A program made the position numbers and the translations under genes. Under the pieces are notes generated by a model, which was given only the letters and a program-made list of their open reading frames with translations, was not told the DNA's origin and searched no databases. Below, piece after piece: positions 8,377 to 19,281 of a DNA stretch of 64,000 bases (position 1 is the stretch's first letter; each line of letters starts with the position of its first letter). The stretch is from Mycobacteroides chelonae CCUG 47445 (lineage in GTDB: Bacteria; Actinomycetota; Actinomycetes; Mycobacteriales; Mycobacteriaceae), in assembly GCF_001632805.1 (NCBI RefSeq), contig NZ_CP007220.1, forward strand, positions 1 to 64,000, in the 5' to 3' direction.

Positions 8377-8404
8377 GGAACCGATCCTGAGGCCTCGACG
8401 TCGT
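8377..8404 (+). promoter_or_regulatory. ECF-sigma (SigM-like) promoter 1
   Basis: GGAACC (8377-8382), a 16-nt spacer and CGTCGT (8399-8404) form an ECF-type promoter 38 nt before the ATG of the WXG-type gene at 8442. The same -35 box, spacer length and CGTC core recur at three minus-strand sites: 12800-12827, 13270-13297 and 16835-16862. GGAACC with about 15-16 nt and CGTC is the pattern attributed to mycobacterial SigM. Assignment to SigM itself is inference. Confidence 0.75.
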
Positions 8405-8441
8405 ACGTACGAGTACGAAAGCAGCCGGAGGGATTGTCCAC

Positions 8442-9653
8442 ATGGGTGAGAAGTTCAGCGTCGACATTGCGAAGCTGGCGGGTTTTGGTGGCGGCGTCGA
8501 GGATTTGGCCGGGTATCTGGGCAAGGTTCAGAGTCTGGTCGATGCAGAGGCCGGTCCCAAGGACGGCTGGGAGGGGCTCATGTCCCAGCTGAAGGGGCCC
8601 TTCGAGGCAACGAAGACCAAGACATCGCAGCGCTACGACAAGCGCCAGGTCGCGATGTACATGACCGGCAATGAATTGATCTCGCTGGCCAACACCTACA
8701 AAGAACAAGAAAACAAGACCGGGGCCAGGATCCGGGCCGCCGCATCGCCGCTGCCCGGACACGATTCCAGGCGCGATGGTGATGCGACGACGACGGCTCC
8801 ACACCTCGCGACAGGCGATACTCCCGACCTGACGGCGCCCGAGCATGAGGTGGCCGATGTGGTGTCGATCGTGCGGGAGAAGGCGGCGTGGGTTGCTGAT
8901 GCCGACGAAGCGATCCAGAAGGTCTCCGGATGGAGTCCGATCAACGACACGTTCGAAAAGCTCGTCGGTAACTGGGCCGAGTTGACCCGCATCGGCAACG
9001 TGTATGAGAAGGCCGGCAAGGGCATGGAGGGTGCGGGCAAATCCCTTGAGTCAATGACCGACCAGTCCAAATCGCATTGGGATGGTAAGTCGGCCCAAGC
9101 CTTTGATGAATACGCGAAAAAGCTGAGCAAGGCGCTGGAGGCAGAGGCTCCGCTGACGAAGGTCATCAAGGACTGCCTGGACGTGCTGGTGGAGCAGATC
9201 AAGAAGTTGATCAAAACCATCGTTGACATGGTGGTCGAAAAGCTAAAGCAGGAAGTCCAGATCGACAACTGGAAGGACGCCCTGAAGGTTCTGGCGAAGA
9301 AGATTCCGATCGCCGGAACCGCTTGGCAGGTAGAACGTTTGGCCGCCATTCTCTACGAGGTCTTTCAGGAGGCGCAAAAGCTGGTCGACCAGGTCCAGAA
9401 GGCAGTCGATCTGGTGAAGTCCGTCATCGAGTTCTTCGAGGACCCGGCCGAATATCTGAAAGCCAAGGGGCAGGACGCGTTGAACAAGGCGGTGGATAAC
9501 GCGCTGGGTAAGGCGGGCGTGGAGAGTGATGCCGCGAAGCAACTGGTCAAGGATCTGCCTGCGGCGGTGTTGGCGGCGCCGAGTTATCAAGCTGCGCCCG
9601 GCGACGGCTATACCGGCGGCACGGGAGGTTCTCCGTGGGAGGATGGCAAGTGA
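8442..9653 (+). CDS. WXG100-like type VII secretion substrate, 403 aa
   Basis: The protein is almost entirely helical and hydrophilic with no signal peptide or membrane segment. It looks like two four-helix WXG-type modules: residues 1-100, then a Pro/Thr/Asp linker (about 105-135), then a second module whose hairpin turn carries W213-D-G215 in SHWDGKSAQAF. The C-terminal region (about 260-375) is Lys-rich coiled helix ending in a Gly-rich tail. WXG turns are typical of ESX substrates. RBS GGAGGG precedes ATG 8442. The stop overlaps the next ATG (TGATG), so it is coupled to the 79-aa gene. A toxin domain is not recognisable; secretion is inferred. Confidence 0.7.
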   Translation: MGEKFSVDIAKLAGFGGGVEDLAGYLGKVQSLVDAEAGPKDGWEGLMSQLKGPFEATKTKTSQRYDKRQVAMYMTGNELISLANTYKEQENKTGARIRAAASPLPGHDSRRDGDATTTAPHLATGDTPDLTAPEHEVADVVSIVREKAAWVADADEAIQKVSGWSPINDTFEKLVGNWAELTRIGNVYEKAGKGMEGAGKSLESMTDQSKSHWDGKSAQAFDEYAKKLSKALEAEAPLTKVIKDCLDVLVEQIKKLIKTIVDMVVEKLKQEVQIDNWKDALKVLAKKIPIAGTAWQVERLAAILYEVFQEAQKLVDQVQKAVDLVKSVIEFFEDPAEYLKAKGQDALNKAVDNALGKAGVESDAAKQLVKDLPAAVLAAPSYQAAPGDGYTGGTGGSPWEDGK

Positions 9654-9892
9654 TGGAGGTTCCACTCGATCCGGCGTTACAGGCGCTGGTGCGTAAGGTC
9701 ACCGATGGTGTTGCGGAGATGGAGGCGGTTCGACTGGCCGGTGAACGGTACATCGATACCCCGATCGAGCCGAGTTTTACCGAGCGCAGACAGGCTGCTT
9801 CAGAACCTCAAAAACCCCCTACCCCAACGGAGTTGGAGGAAGACGACTTCTATGCCTTCAAAGATCCGTTCGGTACGAACAAGCGGAAGTGA
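9653..9892 (+). CDS. Small hypothetical protein, partner of the upstream WXG protein
   Basis: This 79-aa acidic protein is translationally coupled to the gene at 8442 through a TGATG overlap and is followed one nucleotide after its stop by the lipoprotein gene. Residues 1-35 form a predicted amphipathic helix (LDPALQALVRKVTDGVAEMEAV); the rest is Pro/Glu-rich and ends with FYAFKDPFGTNKRK. No known domain is recognised. Its place suggests a chaperone or partner of the secreted protein, which is inference only. Confidence 0.65.
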   Translation: MEVPLDPALQALVRKVTDGVAEMEAVRLAGERYIDTPIEPSFTERRQAASEPQKPPTPTELEEDDFYAFKDPFGTNKRK

Positions 9893-9893
9893 T

Positions 9894-10490
9894 ATGAGCA
9901 AACGAGCATTGTTGGTTACGGTCGCCGCAGTGGGGTTTTTTAGCGCTGCGTGCGGTTCACAGGAGGCTGAGGGCACTCAGACGCCTTCGTCGACACCCTC
10001 GGGTTCAGCGGCGGCCACAACCACGCAGTCATCCGAGGCCAAAGATTCGGGCTACCAACCGTTTACCCCTGCGACGGATCCCTGCGGTGTCGTAGCGCCG
10101 GAACGATTGGCCCCACAGGGTGCCGCGCCGATCAAGGCACGTGCAATGGATGATGACGGCACCGGTATCCAGCAATGCAATTACGAGGATGCCGGTGGGC
10201 ATGACGTGCTTAATGTGAAGCTCTTCAAGAATTCGACGGGGGCCGCCAATTTCCGGGCGATTCACCTCAGAATTCTGAAGTCCGAGGGCACCGATATCTA
10301 CGTCATGAAGGATGAACCGAACGAGTGCGGTGTCGGGCTTTTAGGGCCAGAGGACAACATTGCCCAGTTTGAATTCGAGCCGGGCGACGCAGCCGTCGCC
10401 GCTGCTGCCTTGTCCGCCGGACAGACATGGTGTGACTTCTCAGCGCCCGTGATCGTCGAGGCCAACAAGAAGTTGGGTTGGACCAAGTAG
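9894..10490 (+). CDS. DUF3558-type lipoprotein
   Basis: The 198-aa product begins with a lipoprotein signal peptide (residues 1-19) and lipobox FSAAC with Cys20 as the lipidated residue. A Ser/Thr/Ala-rich linker follows, then a globular domain opening with DPCGVVAPERLA, characteristic of DUF3558 lipoproteins, with further Cys near QQCNYED, PNECGVG and TWCDFSA that could form disulfides. ATG 9894 is the only start that exposes the signal peptide; the in-frame upstream extension is rejected. It is the last gene of the three-gene unit driven from 8377. A second DUF3558 lipoprotein lies at 11769-12371. Function unknown. Confidence 0.8.
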   Translation: MSKRALLVTVAAVGFFSAACGSQEAEGTQTPSSTPSGSAAATTTQSSEAKDSGYQPFTPATDPCGVVAPERLAPQGAAPIKARAMDDDGTGIQQCNYEDAGGHDVLNVKLFKNSTGAANFRAIHLRILKSEGTDIYVMKDEPNECGVGLLGPEDNIAQFEFEPGDAAVAAAALSAGQTWCDFSAPVIVEANKKLGWTK

Positions 10491-10497
10491 CGCTAAC

Positions 10498-10530
10498 GAC
10501 TTTGGGTGGCTAAGCCAGCCACCCAGAGTC
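10498..10530. terminator. Bidirectional terminator hairpin
   Basis: A 14-bp stem with one G-T wobble (10498-10511 with 10517-10530, loop AAGCC) lies between two convergent genes. It can terminate both transcripts. Confidence 0.75.
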
Positions 10531-10538
10531 ATTCTGAA

Positions 10539-11750
10539 TCACTCGTATTTGACGTCCCAGCCGAGCTTTTTGTAGCGCTGCTTCTCACGTTCCTGCGCTT
10601 GCTTGTCGGCCTTCTCCTGCTCGCTCCAGTCGCCGATGACGGCAGGTGATGCCTTGGGTAGGTCGCCCATGAACTCGTAGGTGTTGTCGAGGTTGATCAG
10701 GATCGCCGGGGTCTCGTGGTCGTCGTCCTCGTCGTGACCGCCCTTACCGTGGGCGCCCGCGCCCCCCATCATGCCCATGGGACCCATCGCGCCGCCGCGT
10801 ACTCCGGAAGCGCCGACGGCAGCCGGGTTGGTGCCCGCTCCGCTAGTGGCTCCACCGGGAAGTCCGCCGCCGGCTCGCAATGCGCTGGCACCGCCGGCAG
10901 TTCCCGAGGCGAGGCCTGTACCGCCAGCAGAACCTGAGGATCCGTAACCGGCGGCGGTCGTCGCTCCTAGTGGGAGGCCGGAACCACCTGTGCCCGTACC
11001 GGTTCCAGATCCAAACGGCGAGCTTCCGCCAGCACCCGAACCGGAGCCGGAGCCTTGCCCGCCGCCCGAGCCGCTGCCGGAACCTGAACCTGAACCGGCG
11101 CCTTGCCCCTGCCCTTGTCCGCCCTGCCCCTCACCGTTGGCGAGCTGCGGCTTGGTGTCCTTGTTGGCCAGGCCGTCGGCGCCGCCGCCCGGGGACTGCA
11201 GATTGGTACCGGACCCACCACCCGAGTTGCCGCCGCCGCCCCCGCCGCCCCCGCCGGATCCTTGAGGCATCGAGCCCATCGGCGAGCCTTGCTTGGCCTC
11301 ATCAACCTCGGGTCTGTCAACATTGAGTGGCTCGGTGTAGAGACGTTGTGCCTCGGTCCGAACGGCTTCTAGGAGTTTCTGTTTGGCATCTTTGTCGGTG
11401 TTGTCGGGCGGTACGGGGTACTGCTGTGGAACGTAACCCGCGTTGGTTAGGCAAGCTCCGTCCTGAAACAGTGCATTCTGCAGCTTCCCGGCCTTGGTAG
11501 GGATACCATCTTCGGCCTGGAGCTCTTGGTACTTGGCGTTAAGCGCGCCGATTGCAGCCTCGGGTCCTTTACCAGTCCAGATCGGCTGCATAACGCTGGC
11601 AGCCCGCGTGTAGTGCTCGGCGGCATCGGAAACCTTCGTGTAGATATCGCTCCACTTCTGGGCCGCATTGAAGGCGCCGTCGGGCTTGAGCTGACTGAGC
11701 TTTCCGACGATGTCGGCGTGTGACATACCGTCCCATCCGTCACCGGACAT
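10539..11750 (-). CDS. WXG-type ESX substrate with long Gly-rich linker
   Basis: The 403-aa protein has three parts. Residues 1-125 are a helical WXG/PPE-like domain with W58-T-G60 in the turn (MQPIWTGKGPEAA). Residues about 155-330 are a very Gly/Ser-rich low-complexity linker with poly-Gly, Gly-Gln and Gly-Ser runs. The C-terminal part has a His/Asp-rich patch (GGHDEDDDHETP) followed by ILINLDNTYEFMGDLPKASPAVIG and a charged helical end. I know this C-terminal pattern from other actinobacterial ESX-associated proteins but cannot name its function. RBS GGAGGGAG precedes the ATG at 11750. It is the third gene of the unit from the promoter at 12800-12827, 18 nt after the lipoprotein gene. Confidence 0.75.
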   Translation of the reverse strand: MSGDGWDGMSHADIVGKLSQLKPDGAFNAAQKWSDIYTKVSDAAEHYTRAASVMQPIWTGKGPEAAIGALNAKYQELQAEDGIPTKAGKLQNALFQDGACLTNAGYVPQQYPVPPDNTDKDAKQKLLEAVRTEAQRLYTEPLNVDRPEVDEAKQGSPMGSMPQGSGGGGGGGGGNSGGGSGTNLQSPGGGADGLANKDTKPQLANGEGQGGQGQGQGAGSGSGSGSGSGGGQGSGSGSGAGGSSPFGSGTGTGTGGSGLPLGATTAAGYGSSGSAGGTGLASGTAGGASALRAGGGLPGGATSGAGTNPAAVGASGVRGGAMGPMGMMGGAGAHGKGGHDEDDDHETPAILINLDNTYEFMGDLPKASPAVIGDWSEQEKADKQAQEREKQRYKKLGWDVKYE

Positions 11751-11768
11751 GTTTGCTCCCTCCAGTTG

Positions 11769-12371
11769 TCATTTAGGAAGTTTCGCGACCGTATCGGTCG
11801 CAATCTCGATGGCCTTGGTGCAGGCGTCGGGGATCCTGGTGGCGGCTCCGGCATCGACGTTAACGAGGGTCGCGACAACGGCCTTCTGGGACGGGACCTG
11901 CACGGAACAGAATCCGGTACCGGGTTGGCTCAGGCGATGCTGAGAACCTTGCAGCCCGGCAATGGTCAAGGGCTGTGCGTCCGGATAATTGTTGGTGTCG
12001 AGATACTCCGAGATAGAGCGATTGGCTACCAATTGCTGAACGTACCAACCTTTTCCGTTCCAGATACAGCCACGTTGCAGGCCGTCATCTACACCTTTGA
12101 CAGTGGCCGGATCTAGTCCCCATTTACTCAATTCTGCGGCGCTGTAGGCCACGCAGGGATCGAAGGTGGTGCCGTCAGTGTTTGAATTCGGTGTCTGATG
12201 TGGGCCAGAGACGGCGTTGCTGGTCGGAGGTGAAGAGCTAGTCGCGCCGCTAGTCCCTGGGGACGAATCGGCGGTTGCAGTCTTAGCGTCTCCGGACACG
12301 GTGTCAGCACAGCCCGCCATCGCCAGCGCAGTGGCCGCCGTCACGAGCACGAAGCGAGAAGCGCGGCTCAT
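11769..12371 (-). CDS. DUF3558-type lipoprotein
   Basis: This 200-aa protein has a signal peptide with lipobox AMAGC (lipidated Cys21), a Ser/Thr/Pro-rich linker (about 25-68) and a DUF3558-like domain starting FDPCVAYSAAELSKWGLDP. It parallels the lipoprotein at 9894 in size and layout. Its ATG overlaps the stop of the upstream 132-aa gene by 4 nt. Placement between a small helical protein and a WXG protein suggests it acts at the cell surface with the secreted product; the role is unproven. Confidence 0.8.
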   Translation of the reverse strand: MSRASRFVLVTAATALAMAGCADTVSGDAKTATADSSPGTSGATSSSPPTSNAVSGPHQTPNSNTDGTTFDPCVAYSAAELSKWGLDPATVKGVDDGLQRGCIWNGKGWYVQQLVANRSISEYLDTNNYPDAQPLTIAGLQGSQHRLSQPGTGFCSVQVPSQKAVVATLVNVDAGAATRIPDACTKAIEIATDTVAKLPK

Positions 12372-12766
12372 TTGTACTCGACTGTCAGCTTGTGATCAAA
12401 GACGCGGCCGGCGTTGTACGCGTCCATGTTGTTGTACAGAAGCTCCATGGCCAGTACGTGATCGATCTTCGCTTGGCAGTCGGCCTTCAATGCGGTGAGG
12501 CGAGTCACCATCTCAGGCGCCTGTTTGCGGTAATGCGCCATAGCCTGTTGCCCCGTGTTCAGTGCCCCAAAACCTTCAATGTTGCCCGCTTGTTGCGCGA
12601 TTTGAAGCGCCTCGTTGATGAGATCAAGAGCGGGTAGCAGCTCCTTGGCGACCGTTTGCCCGGCCTTTTCGTCCATGTGCAGCACCTGACCAGCGTCGTT
12701 GGCCGCGCTCCGCTGCGCGTCGGGGGTCATCCCACCCAAATCGAAGTCGTAGTTCTTTTCCGTCAT
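12368..12766 (-). CDS. Small helical protein, probable ESX-associated partner
   Basis: The 132-aa protein is soluble and mostly helical, with no signal peptide. It contains the segments TVAKELLPALDLINEALQIAQQAG and LTALKADCQAKIDHVLAMELLYNNMD. I chose ATG 12766 because GGAGGCGGAG lies directly upstream and the promoter at 12800-12827 leaves a short leader. The in-frame extension to 12793 would begin at about the transcription start. It opens a three-gene unit, overlapping the lipoprotein start by ATGA. It could be a WXG-like partner or chaperone for the 403-aa protein; no family is recognised. Confidence 0.7.
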   Translation of the reverse strand: MTEKNYDFDLGGMTPDAQRSAANDAGQVLHMDEKAGQTVAKELLPALDLINEALQIAQQAGNIEGFGALNTGQQAMAHYRKQAPEMVTRLTALKADCQAKIDHVLAMELLYNNMDAYNAGRVFDHKLTVEYK

Positions 12767-12799
12767 GCTCCGCCTCCAGAAACCTGCTCTCAAATGGAT

Positions 12800-12827
12800 A
12801 CGACGCCCCTACCCCAGGTTCGGTTCC
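12800..12827 (-). promoter_or_regulatory. ECF-sigma (SigM-like) promoter 2
   Basis: Read on the minus strand, GGAACC (12827-12822), 16 nt, then CGTCGT (12805-12800). It is 34 nt upstream of the ATG at 12766 and has the geometry of promoter 1. Confidence 0.75.
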
Positions 12828-12927
12828 ATCTTTCCGGAACTTTCTTTGACGGAGTCCGGGCGGGGTCTACCTCGCCGCGTACCTGGGAAGAAAACCCCAG
12901 ACCAGGGTCCTAATCGTAGGCGAAGCT

Positions 12928-13236
12928 TTAGCCCTGACGGGACGGGTCGCCACCGAGCCCGGAGGCGGTTCGGTCGTCGGTCGCGATGAATGCTGTGCTG
13001 GTCAGCCGAAGCTTGTCGCGATAGTCATCGCAGCGGGCCCCGTCACCGGTCATCAGCCCGGCTAGCCGCTCGACGGCGGGTCCGATGTCGGCCATCTGGT
13101 CGGCGTAGTGAGAGCCAAATGTCTCGGCGCGCAGCTCGCAGGACCGAACCTTGTCCCCTTGAGCCCGCAGACCCTCGGCGGCGCGTCCCCAGACGCCCGC
13201 CAAACTCTCGACACCGTCGGAGTCGATGTACGTCAT
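12928..13236 (-). CDS. Small EspC/WXG-like secreted protein
   Basis: The 102-aa protein is helical and resembles the EspC/WXG-like class of about 100-aa ESX-associated proteins in size and helix-turn-helix layout, but it lacks an obvious WXG turn. ATG 13236 has AAGGG upstream; the longer frame to 13260 would start near the transcription start of promoter 3. It forms a one-gene unit, ending 161 bp before the next minus-strand gene, whose own promoter lies in that gap. Family placement is tentative. Confidence 0.6.
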   Translation of the reverse strand: MTYIDSDGVESLAGVWGRAAEGLRAQGDKVRSCELRAETFGSHYADQMADIGPAVERLAGLMTGDGARCDDYRDKLRLTSTAFIATDDRTASGLGGDPSRQG

Positions 13237-13269
13237 AAGAGCGACCCTTCTTAGTTTCAACTACCTATT

Positions 13270-13297
13270 CCGACGCAGGCCCACGGAAATCGGTTCC
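13270..13297 (-). promoter_or_regulatory. ECF-sigma (SigM-like) promoter 3
   Basis: On the minus strand, GGAACC (13297-13292), 16 nt, CGTCGG (13275-13270), 34 nt upstream of ATG 13236. The promoter-to-start distance equals that of promoter 2. Confidence 0.75.
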
Positions 13298-13313
13298 ATG
13301 AATTTCGTGTGGA

Positions 13314-14243
13314 TTACAGCTCCGGGCAGGTGGCGGTGAGCTCGACGGGGTGGGGCTCGTCGAACGTCTTGTTTCGGTAGATCCGATACAGGTTGGCCTT
13401 GATGTGAAGGGTGTTGCCTTCTTTGGTCACCGATGCTTCGGCGGGAACCCGGGTGGTGTAGTTGAACAGGGCCCCGCCGACATAGCCGTGAAGTACGGCA
13501 CCATCTTTCACCTCAAAGGTGAGGGTGTTTCCGGGGTTACCCAAGCCCGGTTTAACCGCAATCTTCAACGAGCCGTTCGGTTCTCGGCTGCAGGAGGCGG
13601 CATCGGTGCCGTCGACCAGGACTCGTCCGTCCACCGTCGCATCCACTCGCGGCCCCCTGGGGTCGGTCTTGGGAGGCACGGGCGGTGCCGACGGCTGCTG
13701 TGGATGGGGGTAAGCGGGGCATGTTGCCGTGACGGTAAACGGAATCGGCTTAGGCTCACCCGGGTCCAGATTCAGGAACACCACACCGGAAACGTTGTAG
13801 GTCGAGCCCTGCACCACCACGGTGGGAGGTGATGGCAGATGGGACCACGTCTTCCACAGATACATGCCACCATCCGGTGCCCCGATGCGAATCTCGTTCA
13901 CGGTGGATGTCCCGGTGTCCAGCCGCAAGCTCAGTGAACTCGCTTGTGGTGCCGTGCTAAAGCCGATTGTGGGCTCCTCAGTAAACCCGAGACAGACCGG
14001 GTCGCTGAATGCCAGCGGATGCCCGTCGAGGGTGGCTTCGATGGTGGCCGGACCGCGAGGGAAATTGGGAGGGAGGGGCGCCGTGGTGGTCGAGACCGGC
14101 GCCACCGCCGATGTCGCGGTGGGCGTATCGGCCGGCGGCTTCGGATCGCACGCGGCAGCGGGCACCCCGACGAGCAATGCCAGGAGGATTCCCAAGGTCC
14201 TCTTCGTCGCCGGGCTAGCGCTCAGTCCCGATATCCGTAACAT
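13314..14243 (-). CDS. Lipoprotein with two tandem LpqH-like domains
   Basis: The 309-aa product has a signal peptide and lipobox PAAAC (lipidated Cys32), then a Pro/Thr-rich linker. Two domains of about 110 aa follow that each resemble the 19-kDa antigen LpqH fold. Both start with a (I/V)(E/D)ATLDG/ATVDG-type strand, carry a Cys in the next segment, and end with a TATCP motif (near residues 190 and 306). ATG 14243 with GAGGGGG upstream exposes the signal peptide; the frame extends 148 codons further upstream but overlaps the preceding gene with no coding character. It is the last gene of the four-gene unit from promoter 4. LpqH family members are surface lipoproteins; the duplication is unusual. 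Confidence 0.75.
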   Translation of the reverse strand: MLRISGLSASPATKRTLGILLALLVGVPAAACDPKPPADTPTATSAVAPVSTTTAPLPPNFPRGPATIEATLDGHPLAFSDPVCLGFTEEPTIGFSTAPQASSLSLRLDTGTSTVNEIRIGAPDGGMYLWKTWSHLPSPPTVVVQGSTYNVSGVVFLNLDPGEPKPIPFTVTATCPAYPHPQQPSAPPVPPKTDPRGPRVDATVDGRVLVDGTDAASCSREPNGSLKIAVKPGLGNPGNTLTFEVKDGAVLHGYVGGALFNYTTRVPAEASVTKEGNTLHIKANLYRIYRNKTFDEPHPVELTATCPEL

Positions 14244-14302
14244 CAGAGCCCCCTCAACTAATCTGTCCACCAGAGTTTTTCGCTTGTGTGGCCGCCGACG
14301 GA

Positions 14303-15079
14303 TCATGCGGCGCAGGCACCCCCGCGCCGGACGGACTGCAGTGCGGATAGCGGAATACGGGGCTGCCACGCGGCGGAGTGAACCGGTCCCATACGTTCGG
14401 CGGGCATGACGAGCACAAGGTCGTCGCCGTCGAGGTACCAGGCCTTGTAGTCGCCGCTGTAGCCGCCGTGGCCGGGCTGGGGTTCGAACTGGCCAATGGT
14501 GAATTGGGGGGTCTTGTCCAGGGCGACAGCCTGCTCCACGTAAGGGCGTATGAGCGGCGGGAGTGCGGTCAGCGGATCGACACCCGGGCAGAACAGGTCC
14601 GCGAGCGCGAGCTGCCTTCTGTTCGTCTGCTCGAAAGTGAAGGTGACCACCGCATCGTTGGGGTGCGGCGTTCCGGTGACGAACCAATCTTCTGTGAAGA
14701 CGACGGACAGGGTGTGCGGAGACTTATAGGTCTTGTAGCCCAGGCTCGCTTCGCTGTTTTGCGTGAGGTTGTCATTCGGGTGGCCGAATTTGTTGAAGAA
14801 GCCGGTGAGGAATTGTTGGAGCACCGGTCCGGCTGCTGGGTCGTCCAGCAGGTTAACGGGATAGGTGGCTTGAACTTTCGCCGTGATGTTCTTCGCGTTC
14901 GTGCCGGTAAGTGCGCAGCTTTCCTTGGAGCCGTCCCACGTGCCACCCACGTTCGTGCACAGGTCTGTCGGCGGCGCGGCGGTTGCGGGACTTTGCACGG
15001 GACTCGCGGTGGAGCAGGCTGCCAGCGCGAGAAGAAGCGCTGCCAGCGGACGTAGTTTCCGGACTGTCATTGTCGCCAT
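14303..15079 (-). CDS. DUF3298 (RsiV/MPT64-like) lipoprotein
   Basis: The 258-aa protein has an N-terminal signal with lipobox LAAC (Cys22). The C-terminal third matches the DUF3298 pattern: LALADLFCPG, a helical segment LPPLIRPYVEQ, then AWYLDGDDLVLVMPAERMGP and WQPRIPLSAL. DUF3298 is found in the Bacillus anti-sigma factor RsiV, where it binds lysozyme, and in MPT64-type mycobacterial antigens. It begins 13 nt after the stop of the GH19-domain gene, so it is co-transcribed with it. A role as receptor or inhibitor of that enzyme is an attractive inference. RBS GGAAGG precedes ATG 15079; an alternative ATG lies 9 nt inside. Confidence 0.75.
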   Translation of the reverse strand: MATMTVRKLRPLAALLLALAACSTASPVQSPATAAPPTDLCTNVGGTWDGSKESCALTGTNAKNITAKVQATYPVNLLDDPAAGPVLQQFLTGFFNKFGHPNDNLTQNSEASLGYKTYKSPHTLSVVFTEDWFVTGTPHPNDAVVTFTFEQTNRRQLALADLFCPGVDPLTALPPLIRPYVEQAVALDKTPQFTIGQFEPQPGHGGYSGDYKAWYLDGDDLVLVMPAERMGPVHSAAWQPRIPLSALQSVRRGGACAA

Positions 15080-15092
15080 GGTGTTCCTTCCG

Positions 15093-16487
15093 TCATCCGC
15101 CGAGCGCCGTCAGCGCTCTCTGATAAACGTCGCGCTTCTTATCCCGGTTGCCGTCGTAGTAGTTGACGATATCGGTCACCGCGTCGATTCCTCCGCTATC
15201 GGCAGCGGCATTGATCCCGTGGGCGGTCCAGTACCACTCCGCGGCCGCGAATCCGTACTCGGGCTGTTGGAGCAGTTCGGGTGTCTGGGTGAAATCCATT
15301 GGCGGATTTGGGCTATAGCTCTGGTTGTACCACTCGGTGAATCGCTGGTAGTTGCTTCTGCCGGTGACCTGGATCGGACCACGCCCCATAAACCGCGCAC
15401 CGTCGCCCGGTTCTGTGTTTCCGAGCTCTTGCCCTTTCGAGGTTTGCGGGCCGTAGTGCGCGTTGAACCAGTCGGCGTCGGGCCCGCCCGGATAGGCGCC
15501 CTCGTACCACATGGTCAGCTCACCGGATTCGATTGCACAGGTGGCAAGGAACGCTGCCTGCCGCTGCGGGGTATCGATGCCGGCGTGTTCCATCATGGCG
15601 TTGAGCTGGTCGAGAATTCGTTGTTGCTGTTCCGGGGGCAGGCTTGCGAAGGCGCCTTGATTGAAGACGGCCTGCAGCTGATCCATCGTCACCTTGTGGA
15701 AAGAGCTGTCCTCCGGGCCGTTTTCGCCGATGTTGAGTGCTTGGCGCAGGATGGTGTAGTTGTCGGTGACGAATTGGTCCATGCTGGTGTTGGCGTCGTT
15801 GAAGGCGGCGATGGCGGTGGCGAATGCGCCGATGACGCTGGTGCGTAGGTCGTCTTTGACTTGTCGGGCAGGCCAATTGACGCCGGGGCTGCCGTGCCAG
15901 GCATAGAGATGTTTTTCTGAGCCTTCGACTCCGGTGTTGTTGGCGCTGATCGCGGCGGCGCCGGTGGTGAGCCGGTTGGCGAAATCGGTGGGGTTGTTCT
16001 GAATCGTTCCTTCAATCATCAGGGTGATCGCCGCGGTGTATTCGTCTTGTTTTTTGTTCAGACCGAAGTACAGGTTGTCGTCGACGCCTTTGACGGCTTC
16101 TTGGGCGTCCTTGAGCTTTTGAAGGTTGGCTTGCAGTTGTTCGGTGTTGGTTTTGTATTTCTCCCAGGCCGCATCGGCGGCATGGCCTTTGACGTATTGC
16201 GAGAGGCGTTCGGTCTCCCCGATCAGCCCGACTTGTTCGGTGCCACCGGTGACCGCGTCTTGCAGGTGGTCTCCGGATTCGCGGATCACCTTCAAGTTGA
16301 TGTCGGCTTCCTTGTAGTAGGCGGCCTCAAAATCGGCGGCACTGCGGTCCATCGGCAGCCCCGATAAGTCGACCCCGGCCTGACTCAACTCGCCCTGGTG
16401 AGTCTTCAAAATCTCCCAGTACCCACAAAAATCCCGGATCTTGGCACCGTCATCGAGCACCTGCCGACCCGTGTCATAAACCACCAC
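15093..16487 (-). CDS. Predicted ESX-associated protein with C-terminal GH19/COG3179 chitinase-muramidase domain
   Basis: The 464-aa protein has a long helical N-terminal region (about 1-270, Gln/Lys/Ala-rich, no signal peptide) that resembles ESX substrate helices. The C-terminal domain (about 300-464) carries the GH19/COG3179 signatures: AFLATCAIESGE with the presumed catalytic Glu320, GDGARFMGRGPIQVTGRSNY, and the C-terminal DIVNYYDGN...R segment. Such domains cleave chitin or peptidoglycan. Starts are GTG codons at 16490, 16487 or 16484; I picked 16487 for its spacing from GAGGGGG. It follows the 91-aa gene by 17 nt and precedes a DUF3298 lipoprotein. Secretion by ESX and the substrate are inferences. 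Confidence 0.75.
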   Translation of the reverse strand: MVVYDTGRQVLDDGAKIRDFCGYWEILKTHQGELSQAGVDLSGLPMDRSAADFEAAYYKEADINLKVIRESGDHLQDAVTGGTEQVGLIGETERLSQYVKGHAADAAWEKYKTNTEQLQANLQKLKDAQEAVKGVDDNLYFGLNKKQDEYTAAITLMIEGTIQNNPTDFANRLTTGAAAISANNTGVEGSEKHLYAWHGSPGVNWPARQVKDDLRTSVIGAFATAIAAFNDANTSMDQFVTDNYTILRQALNIGENGPEDSSFHKVTMDQLQAVFNQGAFASLPPEQQQRILDQLNAMMEHAGIDTPQRQAAFLATCAIESGELTMWYEGAYPGGPDADWFNAHYGPQTSKGQELGNTEPGDGARFMGRGPIQVTGRSNYQRFTEWYNQSYSPNPPMDFTQTPELLQQPEYGFAAAEWYWTAHGINAAADSGGIDAVTDIVNYYDGNRDKKRDVYQRALTALGG

Positions 16488-16504
16488 CACAAACCCCCTC
16501 AGCC

Positions 16505-16780
16505 CTAGTACTTCAGCCGGTTTCCACGAAATTCCCAGAAGCTGTCCTCGTCGTCCCAACCGGGTGCGGCCGGCCGCGTCCGGGACACATCTTTGGCCGC
16601 GATGGGGGACTCCTTCGCAGGTAAAGGCGCGTTTCCTGCTTCCCAGGCGGCGCGTTCCCGTGCCTGGCGGGTCTGCTCGGCGCGGATTTCTTGGAAGCGC
16701 TGGGCGGTTTTCAATTTACGAGCCTCAGAGGAGCGCCCAAACTCCAGTTGTAAGGCGTACAGCCGGTCCGCGTACCCCAT
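16505..16780 (-). CDS. Small hypothetical protein opening the GH19 operon
   Basis: The frame is open from 16894, but promoter 4 (16835-16862) lies inside that longer version, so translation must begin downstream. ATG 16780, with GAAGGGA about 10 nt upstream, gives a 91-aa basic, charged protein. It has a long helix (residues about 1-50, Arg/Glu/Gln-rich) and a C-terminal GWDDEDSFWEFRGNRLKY end. No known family is recognised. GTG 16798 would give a leader of about 30 nt like the other three units but has poor RBS spacing. It probably serves the GH19 protein as partner or chaperone (inference). Confidence 0.55.
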   Translation of the reverse strand: MGYADRLYALQLEFGRSSEARKLKTAQRFQEIRAEQTRQARERAAWEAGNAPLPAKESPIAAKDVSRTRPAAPGWDDEDSFWEFRGNRLKY

Positions 16781-16834
16781 GTGCCCATGTCCCTTCACGC
16801 CCTCGAAGTGCCCAGATTCCGCCTCTAAGTACTT

Positions 16835-16862
16835 GAGACGGCGGTACGCCAGATTCGGTTCC
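16835..16862 (-). promoter_or_regulatory. ECF-sigma (SigM-like) promoter 4
   Basis: On the minus strand, GGAACC (16862-16857), 16 nt, CGTCTC (16840-16835). It drives the four-gene unit 16780 to 13314 and decides the start of its first gene. Confidence 0.72.
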
Positions 16863-16986
16863 ATCGAATTCGGGTGTGTGGAGAACGGCACCACGCAGGG
16901 TGCGGTGGGCTCGATGCTTCAGCGGCGGAGCGCTTGCCGCGCATCAAGATCCACACATACTCGTGAGTACCGCGCGAATCTGGGGA

Positions 16987-18708: not shown

Positions 18709-19281
18709 ATGGCCGCTGACCGTCCCACCATCTTCTTTGCGTCGCAACGAGACTGGGAAGAGTGGCTGGAAGAGAACCACGAGAACTCCCCCGGCGTCTG
18801 GATCAAGATGGCCAAGAAGGCCAGCGGCATCCCCAGCATCAACCACAAGGAAGCCCTGGAGGAGGCACTGTGCTTCGGGTGGATCGACGGACAGGCCAAA
18901 TCGCTCGACGAGCAGTACACCTTGCGCATGTTCACTCCACGTCGCGCCCGCAGTACCTGGTCGAAGATCAACGTCGGCCATATCGAACGGCTTACCGGTG
19001 AGGGCCGGCTCAGGCCCGCTGGCCTACGAGAAGTGGATGCCGCCAAGTCCGACGGCCGTTGGGACGCCGCCTACAGCTCGCAGGCCACCATCGAAGTCCC
19101 CGAGGACTTCGCGCAGGCACTGCGCGCCGAGCCGCATGCGCAGCAGTTCTTCGACTCCCTGACCAAGACGGCGCGCTGGCCGTTCCTGTTCCGGCTCACC
19201 ACCATCAAGAGACCGGAGACTCGCGCCCGGCGGATCGTGCAGTACGTCGAGTTGCTGGCGCAGGGAAAGAAGTTGAGCTAG
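18709..19281 (+). CDS. YdeI/OmpD-associated family protein
   Basis: The 190-aa protein matches the YdeI-like family (COG4430): IFFASQRDWEEWLEENH at the N-terminus, GVWIKMAKKASG, and the hallmark EALEEALCFGWIDGQAK (about 48-64), followed by FTPRRARSTWSKIN. The C-terminal half ends with KRPETRARRIVQYVELLAQGKKL, usual for the family. The biochemical role is unknown. ATG 18709 lies 10 nt after a TACCCT sequence that may be part of the promoter. The 171 bp upstream shows nothing else. Confidence 0.85.
   Translation: MAADRPTIFFASQRDWEEWLEENHENSPGVWIKMAKKASGIPSINHKEALEEALCFGWIDGQAKSLDEQYTLRMFTPRRARSTWSKINVGHIERLTGEGRLRPAGLREVDAAKSDGRWDAAYSSQATIEVPEDFAQALRAEPHAQQFFDSLTKTARWPFLFRLTTIKRPETRARRIVQYVELLAQGKKLS

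Follow-up and report, generated by a model that had tools for sequence, protein, structure and literature searches.

Predicted SigM-type promoters in the gyrB-gyrA island of Mycobacteroides chelonae and across its genome

In the first 64,000 nucleotides (nt) of contig NZ_CP007220.1 of Mycobacteroides chelonae CCUG 47445 (this whole stretch being the window referred to below), the gyrB-gyrA island holds eleven genes in four operons, A to D, each of which is headed by the same 26-nt element, GGAACC-N16-CGTC (Table 1). Which sigma factor would read these elements, and do they make the island a regulon of its own? An earlier note on this DNA had taken them for extracytoplasmic function (ECF) sigma factor promoters of the kind attributed to SigM, and the island for a single stress regulon. 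The analysis described here leads to the prediction, held at a probability of about 0.82, that the four sites are SigM-type ECF promoters and form part of a genome-wide set that comprises 17 strict sites and one variant with CATC ahead of esxU-esxT. The view of the sites as a single promoter class maintained by selection could be upheld, whereas the regulon spans the genome rather than the island and the word "stress" found no support. All four exact matches were present, each 5' of the first gene of its transcription unit, while the outer ends first given for them (8404, 12800, 13270 and 16835) overshoot by 2 nt. Site D depends on the choice of start codon: the mechanical choice (16505-16864) would place the site within the open reading frame (ORF), but the start that gives D1 91 amino acids (aa) is favoured, because relatives show single-base indels between site D and the ATG.

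In the window, GGAACC-N16-CGTC occurs four times versus 0.29 expected, with a maximum of 2 in 100 dinucleotide shuffles. The genome was searched as one contig of 5,029,817 bases with the strict pattern GGAACCRRW-N13-CGTC, which corresponds to a spacer of 16 between GGAACC and CGTC. At this spacing 17 sites were found, versus 4, 1, 5, 3 and 2 at spacers of 14, 15, 17, 18 and 19 (Poisson 2e-8 for the excess) and versus 4 for the reversed pattern at spacer 16; summed over the six spacings, GGAACCRRW gives 32 matches versus 27 for the reversed pattern. The looser GGAAC-N17-CGTC, with 96 genome matches versus 61 reversed, is too noisy by itself. Replacing CGTC by CGTT yields 4 matches genome-wide, none of them at spacer 16, and 7 for the reversed pattern. 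An equally high density of the motif elsewhere, which would have spoken against the earlier proposal, was not found: there are 17 strict sites in 5.03 Mb and 4 of these fall within 8.5 kb, all in the window.

The strict sites also share a shape beyond the two boxes. Most of the 17 have an upstream A-rich tract, AT precedes GGAACC in 14, GGAACC is followed by RRW (by selection; mostly AAT or AT), and an A stands three bases past CGTC in 16, with GTA often following CGTC directly. A scoring matrix trained on the same 17 sites found one further strong site in the genome, the esxU-esxT promoter, which at 32.4 bits scores above sites A and C; its -10 box is CATC instead of CGTC and the rest is intact in 8/8 rows (the genome itself and seven relatives). 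In the ESX-3 stretch of the genome the matrix gave nothing above 8 bits.

Position relative to genes was judged with a home-made mechanical codon-usage caller on stretches (numbered with an L) fetched around each of the 13 strict sites beyond the window and around 6 of the 8 sites with a spacer of 17 or 18. Although 85% of the fetched sequence is coding, 16 of the 17 strict sites are intergenic by the caller (all 13 outside the window and A to C), the exception being site D, which is intergenic by choice of start. The six with spacer 17 or 18 all fall within genes by the caller; in L061 the site sits right where an ORF begins, so that the doubt over start choice applies to it. Among the first 30 by position of the 96 GGAAC-N17-CGTC loci, 8/9 sites with RRW are intergenic (the ninth is site D) versus 3/21 of the others. 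The genome further holds 41 sites with GGAACCRA, spacer 16 and CG that lack CGTC; 12 of the 14 fetched, which were chosen for resemblance and not at random, lie inside genes. For unit P and a number of eccC4 genes from other mycobacteria, the caller put the start codon only 9-10 nt past CGTC, which would mean leaderless transcripts.

Conservation was followed in the genus. AT-GGAACCRR-N14-CGTC was found in 156 of 396 genomes scanned, with 0-2 matches per genome for the reversed pattern. Nine relatives were chosen for their high counts (G396, with 7, was omitted), and together they carry 120 strict sites versus 14 reversed: 16 in G104, 12 in G325, 14 in G184, 15 in G050, 10 in G162, 11 in G205, 15 in G235, 14 in G313 and 13 in G258, with 3, 0, 1, 1, 0, 3, 5, 0 and 1 reversed matches, respectively. 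The gene neighbourhood of the window was recognised in eight of the nine, G162 being the exception. When regions upstream of A1, B1, C1 and D1 homologues were collected via the genes (own genome counted, a 32-residue A1 fragment in L149 excluded), both boxes were kept in 23/23 rows (A 7/7, B 5/5, C 5/5, D 6/6), in stretches that had originally been picked around motif hits, so that genomes losing the site but keeping the gene elsewhere could escape. The spacer measures 17 in two rows, A in L150 and B in L163, the latter a paralogue of 37% identity. When the 21 rows of spacer 16 are compared in pairs, the boxes are 100% identical and the spacer 72%, while the flanking 30 nt reach 61% upstream and 70% downstream. 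The spacers of the four window sites are unlike each other, as had been noted, and the proposed selection on the sites is borne out by boxes that stay invariant while spacers drift and by the conserved sites in relatives.

Operons and promoters are gained and lost together: G235 has only A, G313 has A and B, and G258 has A, C and D, while G205 retains promoter D without a gene behind it. The gene-less promoters, namely D in G205 and that of unit X in the M. chelonae genome, look like scars of lost cassettes, to judge from sequence. The island as a single unit was rejected, since operons A to D come and go separately among relatives; because they do so one by one and with their promoters, the island amounts to a series of independent cassettes, each with its own promoter. 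In L144, L146 and L147 an extra SigM-type cassette, in L144 comprising genes for 77, 95 and 515 aa, lies between the NAT gene and a gene matching window positions 18709-19281, where the window has no such site. A scan for related loci with A1 returned 2 loci only, and when the proteins of 41 genomes were searched, A1 was present in 0 of 24 other genomes of the genus, presumably as few of this clade had been drawn; the relatives were reached through the motif scan of the 396 genomes.

The attribution to SigM draws on the boxes, on their occurrence before ESX-4 genes in other mycobacteria, on the presence of SigM and on published work. The SigM consensus is a GGAAC -35 box, 16-18 nt and a CGTC -10 box, and the four sites as well as the 17-site set fit this pattern. 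The genome encodes a protein that matches the SigM equivalog NF007225 with 289 bits (cut-off 190), its gene being followed by thioredoxin reductase and thioredoxin genes (L063). Ten ESX-4 loci from ten other mycobacterial genomes, picked since motif hits cluster there, encode EccC4 proteins 46-54% identical to that of M. chelonae; the motif stands 5' of eccC4 in 10/10 and, with CGTC, 5' of an esxU-esxT-type pair in 9/9, the tenth stretch ending there. The pair encodes proteins of 107-109 and 98 aa, the second 33-38% identical to M. chelonae EsxT. Of eight other stretches analysed, five carry a site that precedes a small gene (87-111 aa) or coincides with its beginning, with a larger gene next in line, and L135, L137 and L142 lack this arrangement. 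In the clade of M. chelonae itself, no motif was found 5' of eccC4 in 6/6 rows; eccC4 has here either lost the motif or never had it, and ESX-4 itself has all but dropped out of the set.

These observations agree with published work on SigM, for which control of ESX-4 and, in M. smegmatis, a role of cell contact are reported (PMC10117145, PMC9514802). Overexpression of sigM in M. tuberculosis raised esxU 1800-, esxT 70-, esxF 60- and esxE 100-fold (PMC8593097 citing Raman 2006), and sigM deletion lowered esx-4 genes 2-4-fold (PMC10117145). In M. smegmatis, contact activates SigM and thereby ESX-4, a cell wall hydrolase and a nuclease (PMC9514802 citing Clark 2018). A PQS signal raises sigM, esxT, esxU and the WXG100 gene MAB_3747c of M. 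abscessus, together with esxG and esxH of ESX-3 (PMC11768086); by its number, six from esxT, MAB_3747c would fit unit P. Judged by title and abstract opening, no paper returned by the literature searches defines a SigM regulon for M. abscessus or M. chelonae or names the island as a SigM target, and the term SigM does not occur in PMC9401124. SigM is the best candidate, as had been suggested, and we infer that it reads the motif in M. chelonae.

What the promoters would control can be read from the units behind them (A to D in the window, E to P and X elsewhere in the genome). Thirteen of the 17 sites head operons with a WXG100, PE, PPE, EspC, EspA-like or DUF3558 product, many of these matches lying below the Pfam cut-off, and two further units (D and O) encode an envelope hydrolase. 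Island matches to the WXG100, PE, PPE and EspC families are all below the cut-off, whereas units E, G, N and P elsewhere exceed it. With the starts chosen by the mechanical caller, A3 and B2 come out shorter and D1 longer than listed in Table 1. Cassettes B, H, I, J/K and N are related, each having a small first protein (not all pairs of which match), a DUF3558 lipoprotein and a protein of about 360-455 aa with a shared C-terminal part, represented in the island by B3; products of units A, C, D and O have no BLAST match to other units. A gene for an LpqN-type lipoprotein is convergent to the phospholipase gene of unit J/K and would be a candidate immunity partner. The literature search on DUF3558 found no paper naming it. 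The 24 proteins described as specific to the Abscessus-Chelonae clade in PMC5819568 include MAB_0008, MAB_0014 and MAB_0015, and judged by gene number these three should belong to the island at 8442-16780.

D2 bears on the possible use of the island. Its AlphaFold model (predicted local distance difference test, pLDDT, 83.7; predicted template modelling score, pTM, 0.49; 15 sequences) has a C-terminal domain that matches GH19 endolysins (9ms7, E 2e-8) and the type VI secretion effector TseP (8xcl, E 5e-6), with GH19 chitinase lower, and E319 and E328 are nearly invariant in the 15 aligned sequences. Named full-length relatives are all from Mycobacteroides, and a metagenome protein, P0008, is 36% identical. 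In L144, L145 and L147 an operon carries two D2-like genes, one with GH19 and the other with a different C-terminal domain (its N-terminal part shortened in L147). The second domain has Cys, His and Asn motifs reminiscent of papain-like peptidases, and Pfam named no such domain. A constant N-terminal part with different C-terminal domains, the trait of polymorphic toxins, is found in these D2-like pairs. A SigM-type unit in L153 comprises two WXG100 genes, a third gene whose product ends in Ntox37 (75 bits, cut-off 27.8) and a 243-aa gene; L154 has a similar gene order, and in both the third proteins measure 430-437 aa and the candidate immunity proteins 243-247 aa. This unit adjoins a gene that resembles truB by eye, and no strict site of the M. 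chelonae genome heads such a unit. Because the D2-like domain swaps and the Ntox37 unit resemble polymorphic toxins, we regard antagonism between bacteria as a likely role of some members of the regulon, in which lipoproteins would be putative immunity proteins.

The strongest competing explanation concerns this use: the promoters may be real and the operons serve maintenance of the cell's own envelope, with the GH19, NlpC/P60 and phospholipase domains remodelling it during contact or mating. This is a possibility to be taken seriously, if somewhat short of an even chance. Lipoproteins recur in the operons, and a cell wall hydrolase is among the contact-induced SigM targets of M. smegmatis (PMC9514802 citing Clark 2018), whereas the domain swaps on one N-terminal part and the Ntox37 domain are typical of antagonism. 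We tentatively propose, likewise as an idea that would more probably fail than hold, that Mycobacteroides SigM has turned from a switch of ESX-4 into a switch of an arsenal: the promoter would travel with each effector-lipoprotein cassette, every newly acquired cassette would come under one contact-sensing sigma factor, the secretion machine would be made independently, and the gyrB-gyrA island would be a growing and shrinking array of antibacterial cassettes.

That another ECF sigma factor of the clade reads the promoters, or that SigM shares them with SigE or SigH, is improbable. Mycobacterial SigE and SigH also use a GGAAC-type -35 box, for which a -10 of CGTT or GTT is expected, and a reading by either was rejected because CGTT is absent at spacer 16 versus 17 sites for CGTC. 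The motif moreover marks ESX-4 in ten other genomes, and ESX-4 is SigM-driven in M. tuberculosis and M. smegmatis according to PMC10117145, PMC8593097 and PMC9514802. Several observations nevertheless weigh against the reading of the set as SigM promoters. With 18 sigma-70 region-2 proteins in the genome there are 17 besides SigM, and the ESX-4 core genes are without the motif, as the matrix found no site 5' of eccB4, eccC4, eccD4 or mycP4 (L073). The sigM stretch L063 holds nothing above 12 bits by matrix; at a best score of 11.9 bits, autoregulation of sigM through this motif was rejected. Some of the classical SigM targets are thus absent from the set in this genome. Sigma consensus sequences of M. 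tuberculosis are reported to be poor predictors (6/15 known sigma-sigma links; PMC4821874), and its esx-4 expression was lowered yet not abolished by sigM deletion (PMC10117145). Two of the 14 look-alikes without CGTC are intergenic too, as is a fifteenth in L063 (5007548). Among the strict sites themselves, that in L057, which has neither the A-tract nor AT, stands 139 nt ahead of a gene for an M48 peptidase, and that of unit X (31 bits) has no same-strand gene for 600 nt. Look-alikes (GGAACCAAAAC...) of the L057 site are present in 6 of the 9 high-count relatives, and the site of unit X runs into a convergent gene that is Nudix-like by eye. In the ESX-3 stretch of the genome the matrix gave nothing above 8 bits.

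That the matches are due to chance, or are by-products of recently duplicated operons, is scarcely credible: the relatedness of B, H, I, J/K and N means that some promoters may share one ancestor, but the boxes also head A, C, D and O, whose products match no other unit, the boxes are conserved over drifting spacers, and a chance origin was rejected on the shuffle, spacing, position and look-alike controls.

If the sites are SigM promoters as predicted, SigM freed from its anti-sigma factor would let RNA polymerase start a few bases past CGTC, and its release would jointly switch on many short operons for predicted type VII substrates, lipoproteins and cell-envelope enzymes. Cell contact may be the trigger, and the products would presumably leave through ESX-4 (or ESX-3). 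The most unexpected result is that, as far as sequence can tell, the cargo cassettes appear to be under SigM with perfect sites while the ESX-4 machine seems to stand outside. Substrates of M. abscessus ESX-4 beyond EsxU and EsxT are still to be identified (PMC11791044, 2025); should SigM read these promoters, candidates could be listed from the operons that follow 16 strict sites and from additional sites in nine other genomes. It would also become possible to test whether ESX-4 and SigM function in contact-dependent antagonism among mycobacteria, in place of or in addition to intracellular life in a host.

Table 1. Promoter sites, operons and genes of the island (window positions), and further units and sites (positions in the stretch named)
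Feature	Position	Strand	Description
Promoter A	8377-8402	+	GGAACC-N16-CGTC exact match; 39 nt from CGTC end to start codon 8442
Promoter B	12802-12827	-	GGAACC-N16-CGTC exact match; 35 nt to start codon 12766
Promoter C	13272-13297	-	GGAACC-N16-CGTC exact match; 35 nt to start codon 13236
Promoter D	16837-16862	-	GGAACC-N16-CGTC exact match; 56 nt to start codon 16780
Operon A	8442-10490	+	
A1	8442-9653	+	403 aa; weak WXG100/EspA-EspE-like region 179-233 (PF06013 E 4e-4, TIGR03930 E 8e-4, both below cut-off)
A2	9653-9892	+	79 aa; no Pfam family
A3	9894-10490	+	198 aa; DUF3558-like, E 1e-5, below cut-off; perhaps a lipoprotein (SAAC by eye, no match to scripted lipobox pattern)
Operon B	12766-10539	-	
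B1	12368-12766	-	132 aa; small protein, no type VII secretion family match
B2	11769-12371	-	200 aa; DUF3558 lipoprotein, 73 bits (cut-off 34.1), lipobox MAGC
B3	10539-11750	-	403 aa; N-terminal part weakly PPE-like, middle rich in glycine, C-terminal part conserved
Operon C	13236-12928	-	
C1	12928-13236	-	102 aa; EspC-like, PF10824 E 3e-4, 21.7 bits (cut-off 23.5)
Operon D	16780-13314	-	
D1	16505-16780	-	91 aa; no Pfam family
D2	15093-16484	-	463 aa; helical N-terminal part, C-terminal GH19 lysozyme/endolysin-type domain
D3	14303-15079	-	258 aa; lipoprotein, lipobox LAAC
D4	13314-14243	-	309 aa; two Myco_19_kDa (LpqH-type) stretches, 49.3 bits (cut-off 23); perhaps a lipoprotein (AAAC by eye)
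Unit D			weak GH19 Pfam match and LpqH-type protein
Unit E	~144 kb	-	PE, PPE, EspG operon
Unit G			WXG100 and EspA-like TPR protein
Units F, I, K, M, P			WXG100, EspC or PPE types
Site of unit P	L065:5029-5054		
Units A, B, H, I, J, N			DUF3558 products, with a lipobox in B2 and in those of H, I, J and N
Unit K			Tle1-like phospholipase domain, 225 bits (cut-off 27); has genes in common with unit J
LpqN-type lipoprotein gene	L056:2563-3165	+	
Unit L			M48 peptidase
Site before M48 peptidase gene	L057:5454-5479 (genome 2963453-2963478)	+	
Unit O			NlpC/P60 and YbaB
Unit X	L052:5411-5436 (genome 734910-734935)	-	no gene in reach
esxU-esxT promoter	L073:4118-4143		CATC variant
Promoter D in G205	L149:7715-7740		
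Extra SigM-type cassette	L144:13997-16156		
Ntox37 unit	L153:4092-6815		

Four known systems come closest to what is seen here. The C-terminal domain of D2 has the same predicted fold as GH19 endolysins and TseP, and differs from them in its fusion to a helical N-terminal part. LXG/WXG polymorphic toxins, which belong to the type VIIb systems of Firmicutes, likewise combine one N-terminal part with varied C-terminal domains, a preceding small gene and nearby candidate immunity genes; here, in contrast, there is no LXG family match, the host is a diderm actinobacterium and the candidate immunity proteins are lipoproteins. Unit E, whose PE, PPE and EspG genes form a minus-strand operon at 144 kb, would by order and place only correspond to the M. 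abscessus PE/PPE/EspG operon MAB_0149c-MAB_0147c, which is raised in synthetic sputum (PMC4974804), although the part of that source consulted mentions no SigM-type promoter for the operon. A further comparison is with the SigM/ESX-4 regulon of M. tuberculosis and M. smegmatis, which is matched by the presence of SigM, by the boxes before esxU-esxT and eccC4 in other mycobacteria and by Esx-type targets; unlike in that regulon, eccC4 is here without the motif, esxU-esxT has the CATC form, and the 17 strict sites stand mostly before cassettes.

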